This document shows positions 57,496 to 58,459 of a stretch of 58,459 nucleotides of DNA, in pieces. Numbering within the stretch: the stretch's first letter is position 1; each line of letters opens with the position of its first letter. Source of the stretch: Clostridia bacterium (GTDB lineage: Bacteria > Bacillota > Clostridia > Christensenellales > RUG350). The position numbers were made by a program, and so were the translations under genes. Where the stretch lies: contig JAGBSX010000034.1 in NCBI GenBank assembly GCA_017631635.1, forward strand, positions 1 through 58,459. The letters are read 5' to 3'. Below the pieces are notes generated by a model. The model saw only the letters and a program-made list of their open reading frames with translations. It was not told the origin of the DNA and searched no databases.

Positions 57496-57535
57496 AAAAG
57501 ACCAAATTGAACAAACAAATTCAATTTGGTCTTTT
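57496..57535. terminator. Terminator after dnaI
   Basis: A perfect 16-base stem (AAAAGACCAAATTGAA / TTCAATTTGGTCTTTT) with loop CAAACAAA, usable in both directions. Confidence 0.92.
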
Positions 57536-57598: not shown

Positions 57599-57627
57599 TT
57601 GCTATTCTTCATAAAAGTTGTTATAAT
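57599..57627 (+). promoter_or_regulatory. Promoter of the candidate structured RNA
   Basis: TTGCTA (57599-57604), 17 bases, TATAAT (57622-57627). The expected start (about 57634) falls within the first strand of the closing stem. Confidence 0.8.
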
Positions 57628-57630
57628 GAG

Positions 57631-57745
57631 GTTGCGACATAAACTAAATAATTCTTGAGAAAAGTATACTTCGGGTAGAAGTGTACCGTTTTCGCATTAC
57701 ATACAAATCTTTTTTCAAGAGTTATAGTTATGTTTGTGTCGCAAC
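57631..57745 (+). ncRNA. Candidate structured RNA / riboswitch-like leader
   Basis: A 115-base segment with nested complementarity. The closing stem is GTTGCGACA (57631-57639) with TGTCGCAAC (57737-57745), extended by AAAC/GTTT. An inner stem pairs CTTGAGAAAAG (57654-57664) with CTTTTTTCAAG (57709-57719), one G-U. An apical hairpin is GTATACTTC / GAAGTGTAC (57664-57686) with loop GGGTA. About 22 unpaired bases (57687-57708) follow it. A good promoter sits exactly before and a terminator and a lipoprotein gene follow. It is not a tRNA, SRP RNA or RNase P RNA, and matches no riboswitch I recall. A 6S-like RNA is a weaker alternative. Confidence 0.6.
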
Positions 57746-57768
57746 AAAGCGGAACGTGCATTTTTGCT

Positions 57769-57804
57769 AGTGTCGTTTCGTTTTGGAACGACACTTTTTA
57801 TTTT
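57769..57804 (+). terminator. Intrinsic terminator between candidate RNA and lipoprotein gene
   Basis: AGTGTCGTTTC / GGAACGACACT stem (one G-T pair) with a 5-base loop, then TTTTATTTT. Its 5' arm repeats GTGTCG from the closing stem of the RNA upstream, so alternative pairing is possible. Confidence 0.85.
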
Positions 57805-57824
57805 GCGAAAAAAGGAGAAGATTT

Positions 57825-58459
57825 ATGAAAAAGAAAATCTTATCAGTTTTAATAACGATATTAGCACTTTGCATGTGTATGTTTACAATGACGGCTTGTA
57901 GTGGCAAGGTTGAGTTTAAGATTAACTTTGTTGTTGAGGGCGAAGTTTATGCAACTGTAACCACGTCTGGTGATGAGGAGATAACTATGCCCACGTCGCC
58001 TACCAAGACAGGCTATACTTTTGACGGTTGGTACTATGACAACGGTGAGTGGAGACTACCCTTCAACAAATATGTGACTATCTCTAGAGACATATCCATA
58101 TATGCTAAGTTTAGTATAGCGCCTACAGTAGGACTTGCCTACGAGTTGTCAACTGATGGCACTTACTACACGTTGACAGGTATAGGTAGTGCAATCGACA
58201 CAGATATTGTTATACCTAGTACCTACAACGATAAGCCTGTGAAGAGTATAGGTGATGATGCGTTCCTTAATTGCTCGTCATTAACAAGCGTAGTAATAGG
58301 CGATAGCGTAACAAGTATAGGTAATTTTGCGTTCGCTGGTTGCAGTGAATTAACAAGTATAGTAATACCAAATAGCGTAACAAGTATAGGCTATAAGGCG
58401 TTTGAGGATTGTAGTAGTTTAGAAGAAATAACGTTACCATTTGTAGGTAAATCGTTAAA
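57825..58459 (+). CDS. Lipoprotein with Listeria-Bacteroides repeat and BspA-type leucine-rich repeats, cut by window edge
   Basis: A secreted surface lipoprotein, at least 211 residues and continuing past the window. The signal peptide (KKKILSVLITILALCMCMFTMTAC) ends in a lipobox Cys. Residues about 30-100 form an InlB B-repeat-like domain (PTKTGYTFDGWYYDNGEWRLPFN...YAKF). From about 110, BspA-like LRR_5 repeats start (VTSIGNFAFAGCSELTSIVIPNSVTSIGYKAFEDCSSLEEITLP). Such proteins mediate adhesion. AAAGGAG precedes the ATG, 20 bases after the upstream terminator, so expression would need read-through or another promoter. Confidence 0.92.
   Translation, partial: MKKKILSVLITILALCMCMFTMTACSGKVEFKINFVVEGEVYATVTTSGDEEITMPTSPTKTGYTFDGWYYDNGEWRLPFNKYVTISRDISIYAKFSIAPTVGLAYELSTDGTYYTLTGIGSAIDTDIVIPSTYNDKPVKSIGDDAFLNCSSLTSVVIGDSVTSIGNFAFAGCSELTSIVIPNSVTSIGYKAFEDCSSLEEITLPFVGKSL

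Follow-up and report, generated by a model that had tools for sequence, protein, structure and literature searches.

Related leader RNAs and non-coding RNAs

Leaders in which an antiterminator and a terminator exclude each other ahead of a Shine-Dalgarno (SD) sequence and a gene are known from terminating riboswitches and from attenuators of the trp and T-box type. LoaP- and EAR-type antitermination leaders are structured RNAs located near the promoters of long operons or of genes that encode surface products, and 6S RNA (RF00013) is a long rod of about 170-190 nt with an internal bulge and its own promoter. Candidate structured RNAs have also been described from gut Clostridiales, Clostridiales-1 being one of them (PMC2864571).

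We analysed a putative leader RNA near the end of a 58,459-nt stretch of DNA (hereafter the window) from a Clostridia bacterium of the order Christensenellales (contig JAGBSX010000034.1). It shares the features mentioned above with the respective systems, but differs from each of them. No Rfam match to a riboswitch or a T-box was obtained, control of the antiterminator strand is predicted to depend on a pseudoknot that it forms with a long rod's apex, and the family displays a strict promoter-to-P1 spacing and diverse surface-protein targets. Unlike LoaP and EAR leaders, the present element includes the terminator, and the Rfam scans gave no EAR-type match. Unlike 6S RNA, the family is multi-copy and occupies a fixed position before ORFs. 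RF00013 was absent from the genome and the locus, while control genomes did match. The Clostridiales-1 model RF01699, taken as part of the Rfam 15 set searched, matched no locus scanned.

At gathering thresholds, neither the window region nor any of 32 homologous loci matched an Rfam 15 family, nearby tRNAs apart, and permissive scans returned only weak matches of miRNA and snoRNA type at chance level. The first-pass annotation, made from the sequence alone, could not assign the RNA to a known class and had named a match to a housekeeping RNA such as 6S as a refutation; the Rfam result agrees with the former, and neither 6S nor any other family matched. We found no description of the family in the searchable open-access literature, which lacks most subscription papers, or in a text search of PMC2864571. 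The region 57631-57804 belongs to a large family of structured RNAs that appears not to have been described. Its anatomy, conservation, covariation, genomic position and the predicted folding of truncated transcripts indicate that it is probably a cis-acting transcription attenuator, serving as the 5′ leader of a lipoprotein gene and representing a leader RNA family found across the Clostridia. Attenuation is an old principle; what appears to be new here is the RNA family, which lies outside Rfam 15 and the searchable literature.

Structure of the putative leader and its promoter

The features of the locus, all on the forward strand, are as follows.

57599-57627, forward: extended -10 promoter (TTGCTA, 17 nt, TGtTATAAT), conserved in homologous copies
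57631-57644, forward: P1 5′ strand, with the transcript start expected in its first nucleotides (fold, covariation)
57645-57663, forward: P2 5′ strand, helix of variable length (fold; class-level covariation in its upper part)
57664-57672, forward: P3 5′ strand, switch segment 1 (predicted fold)
57675-57696, forward: segment 2 (A), comprising the apical loop, P3 3′ strand and J3/2 bulge (covariation, permuted-partner test)
57710-57730, forward: P2 3′ strand (predicted fold)
57732-57745, forward: P1 3′ strand (fold, covariation)
57746-57767, forward: segment 3 (B), partner of A or of the terminator 5′ arm (covariation, permuted partners, folding)
57769-57784, forward: segment 4 (C), terminator 5′ arm and loop, putative antiterminator 3′ strand
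57785-57803, forward: segment 5, terminator 3′ arm and T run (terminator helix covaries)
57813-57817, forward: Shine-Dalgarno AGGAG (sequence)
57825-58459, forward: candidate controlled gene, a lipoprotein with List_Bact repeat and BspA-type LRR_5, running off the window

The consensus-spaced promoter noticed in the first pass is present, with TTGCTA at 57599-57604, TG at 57619-57620 and TATAAT at 57622-57627, the -35 and -10 elements being 17 nt apart. Taken in isolation it is at chance level (2 sites found, 2.1 expected), but it is conserved at a fixed distance in the homologues: out of 161 homologous copies, the gap between the -10 element and P1 is exactly 3 nt in 142, the spacer is 17 nt in 138, and the extended TG is found in 122. 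The intrinsic terminator (helix 57769-57795, then the T run) lies between the promoter and the lipoprotein gene, which starts with ATG at 57825; terminator and ribosome binding site had both been placed correctly. Further upstream, directly 3′ of a dnaC-like gene, a perfect 16-bp inverted repeat (AAAAGACCAAATTGAA/TTCAATTTGGTCTTTT) occupies 57496-57535, and it is probably a terminator parting that gene from the RNA/lipoprotein unit.

The three stems proposed earlier (57631-57639/57737-57745, 57654-57664/57709-57719 and 57664-57672/57678-57686) all exist as parts of a single, almost uninterrupted rod of about 42 bp that carries a large 3′-side bulge, and the closing helix P1 is longer than proposed, 14 bp (57631-57644/57732-57745). 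The minimum free energy of 57631-57804 is -65.8 kcal/mol against a mean of -33.0 in dinucleotide shuffles (z = -9.4), and none of the 200 shuffles reached this value.

Distribution of the family

A DNA search retrieved two homologues with 72-75 % identity, adjoining different genes. A covariance model built on three sequences (R1) matched in 54 of 297 genomes of the order; a model of 30 sequences (R2) matched in 111 of 396 genomes of the order and, in a sample covering the class Clostridia, in 75 of 341. Among 299 genomes sampled from the whole phylum the source genome was the sole match at E ≤ 1e-6, which argues that the model does not merely catch any hairpin followed by a terminator. Full scans found four copies in the source genome and 24, 10, 12 and 12 in four other genomes.

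The search with an exact apical pattern yielded at least 119 stretches in named genomes. Nearly all of the matches listed come from MAGs of gut Clostridia (Oscillospiraceae, Ruminococcaceae, Monoglobus and others), and there was no match among viral contigs. One exact match (L170:2655-2677) comes from a record bearing the name of an archaeon, Methanolobus; as R2 gives none there, it is a chance match or a contaminant. Tandem arrays, in which each unit has its own promoter and terminator, occur at L178:885-1669 (four units) and L183:1202-2049 (three units). We also noticed a subfamily whose closing helix differs (TACCACATTA/TAGTGTGGTA); it coexists with the TGCGACA type, sometimes in tandem with it in one locus, and its members include L061:4378-4541, L065:1593-1746, L055:181-349, L113:1215-1373 and L120:1501-1655.

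Long inverted repeats dispersed in many copies among mixed neighbouring genes could also be expected of a passive hairpin belonging to a transposable element or a recombination site (MITE- or attC-like). We regard this as very improbable. Copies in the same genome are highly diverged, among them the second copy in the source genome, which scored 55.6 bits with R1, versus 191.7; moreover, promoter and terminator are fixed, the compensatory changes are at the level of RNA, and no recombinase was recognised among the neighbours listed.

Alternative pairings

Strand A can pair either with the P3 5′ strand or with B (57747-57767), and B can alternatively pair along the full length of the terminator 5′ arm (57746-57762/57769-57784), giving a 16-bp antiterminator. 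The helices A:B and B:C were both missing from the first-pass list of stems, and both are conserved in homologues. In 46 homologues, the energy of B:C was -12.8 kcal/mol with own partners and -7.8 with permuted partners (sd 0.37), and that of A:B -17.9 and -13.2 kcal/mol (sd 0.46). The same test at the class level (31 homologues) gave z of -6.3 for B:C and -6.5 for A:B; permuted-partner statistics ignore relatedness among the sequences. Neither helix was modelled in the covariance model that found the class-level set.

Covariation was evaluated for P1, A:B and the terminator together. Among 30 order-level sequences, 92.3 % of cells were paired, with 99 double-change cells against 27.6 in shuffles (none of 500 reached the observed value), and slid-alignment controls stayed below 53 % paired. 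Among 82 class-level sequences the values were 94.9 % and 314 against 82; with the antiterminator replacing A:B and the terminator, they were 93.2 % and 274 against 76. Again none of 500 shuffles reached the class-level counts, and the slid controls were far lower. As 61 of the 82 class-level sequences are loci found by an exact pattern inside strand A, invariance in A is partly a matter of selection, and the modest class-level covariation of A:B is explained by the same choice; the order-level set lacks this bias. Covarying homologues, the search for which had been suggested as a check in the first pass, were thus found, and they support its reading of the region as a structured RNA with its own promoter and attenuator geometry before a gene.

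The switch pair that had been proposed originally was a different one. GTGTCG does occur twice, in the P1 3′ strand and in the terminator 5′ arm, and the terminator 3′ arm was therefore thought able to pair with either. However, its pairing with the P1 3′ strand is weakly supported (against permuted pairs, z = -6.6 in the order and -2.0, near noise, in the class) and is broken in several homologues, the covarying alternatives being A:B and B with the terminator 5′ arm. Pairing of the P1 5′ strand with the terminator 5′ arm was also considered and is unsupported (z = -1.9).

When folding of the growing window transcript was predicted, the antiterminator appeared at 156-160 nt and the terminator once its 3′ arm was made. 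Predicted energies were about -17.4 kcal/mol for the antiterminator, -14.7 for the terminator, -10.9 for P3 and -20.0 for A:B, the last being a plain duplex energy that ignores the geometry and pseudoknot cost of a helix crossing P1/P2. The alternative folds thus appear close in predicted energy, as would be expected of a switch. The antiterminator stretch had a median of -16.4 kcal/mol, compared to -6.9 after shuffling B; since 67 % of shuffled B strands still form at least 8 bp with C, counts of pairs by themselves carry little weight. Two features of an attenuator are found at the locus: an intrinsic terminator between promoter and gene and, by sequence and predicted folding, a conserved antiterminator that excludes it.

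Genomic context and target genes

An SD sequence and ORF follow on the same strand within 300 nt in 136 of 162 distinct copies. For the 152 copies with enough flanking sequence, the proportion within 40 nt was 65 %, against 11 % for random positions and 0.6 % for antisense. The distance from terminator to start codon is about 20 nt, with a sharp peak at 15-25 nt.

This placement bears on the alternative offered in the first pass, an independent small RNA. It would be about 165-170 nt long and lie upstream of genes by chance. The element has its own promoter and terminator, as do the units of the tandem arrays, single-stranded regions are available, and some copies lack a clear ORF downstream, which would also fit. 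Nevertheless, we consider such an RNA unlikely: the tight spacing to a downstream SD and start codon and the consistent placement speak against it, and a conserved antiterminator competing with the terminator would serve no purpose in a simple small RNA.

Lipoproteins, LRR proteins of the BspA type and further exported proteins make up most of the putative targets. Pfam searches on 108 target proteins gave BspA LRR (20), zinc ribbons (7), List_Bact repeat (5) and copper amine oxidase N-domain (4), with Ig-like, collagen, CAP, CHAP and others at 1-3 each. In the source genome, the window copy precedes the LRR lipoprotein gene, copy C3 another lipoprotein gene with LRR-like repeats, and copy C45 a small HTH gene followed by a gene for an 888-residue lipoprotein; all three copies examined of the four hence precede a lipoprotein gene or a gene run containing one. 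The gene in the window had been described as encoding an adhesin-like lipoprotein, which holds in the sense of a BspA-LRR lipoprotein but not otherwise. In several class-level genomes, small cysteine-rich ORFs (MIIDITGIELIPGNGGKDCPGNGE..., CCCDECNY) recur directly 3′ of the RNA (L107, L105, L108, L181).

Proposed attenuation mechanism

In the attenuator that we favour, two folds would switch in the cell, P3 together with the antiterminator representing the ON state, in response to a ligand or a protein. RNA polymerase would start at the foot of P1 and produce the long P1-P2-P3 hairpin, followed by strand B. If A is kept in P3, B would be free for the arriving terminator 5′ arm, the 16-bp antiterminator would form and the gene would be transcribed. 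If B instead captures A, a pseudoknot through P1 would open P3 and use up B, so that the terminator could fold and transcription would stop near 57800. The element would thereby act as a chain of five segments, in which 1:2 and 3:4 mean read-through and 2:3 and 4:5 mean termination, the choice being set by the signal acting on the P2/P3/A region.

Regarding the nature of this signal, the attenuator may be a small-molecule riboswitch, with an aptamer in P2, P3 and the junctions whose ligand stabilises P3 (ON) or the A:B pseudoknot (OFF); we put this forward tentatively, at somewhat under even chances. The bulged, sequence-conserved J3/2 and the AATA elements adjoin the attenuator chain, and the many copies before functionally varied genes are reminiscent of second-messenger riboswitches. 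On the other hand, P2 differs greatly in length and sequence among copies, the conserved residues are mostly accounted for by the alternative pairings, and the target genes point to no metabolic pathway. Were this reading right, to which we give the same tentative credence, the RNA would represent a new class of riboswitch and one of the more common classes in gut Clostridia. A ligand at the apex of the promoter-proximal rod would control a pseudoknotted anti-antiterminator, and a single signal would thereby coordinate many surface and secreted proteins.

A slightly less probable possibility, at about one chance in three, is that the setting of the attenuator depends on an RNA-binding protein or specialised antitermination factor, or else on a trans-acting RNA that pairs with strand A. 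The long paired rod with conserved foot and apex and the exposed apical strand A are consistent with it, and so is the fact that the target genes often encode long surface proteins. Against a protein factor stands the result for LoaP, the one known candidate tested, which was above the NF033641 cut-off in none of 15 RNA-bearing genomes; LoaP is unlikely to be the factor setting the switch.

The segments A, B and C of the proposed attenuator offer direct mutational tests, and a curated model of the family would annotate many unexplained intergenic regions. The RNA occurs in many families of the Clostridia and reaches ten to twenty-four copies in some genomes, and it precedes genes for lipoproteins, LRR proteins and other surface or secreted proteins, with which gut bacteria would contact their environment. 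Should the switch prove real, uncultured gut Clostridia would have part of their surface under the control of one signal.
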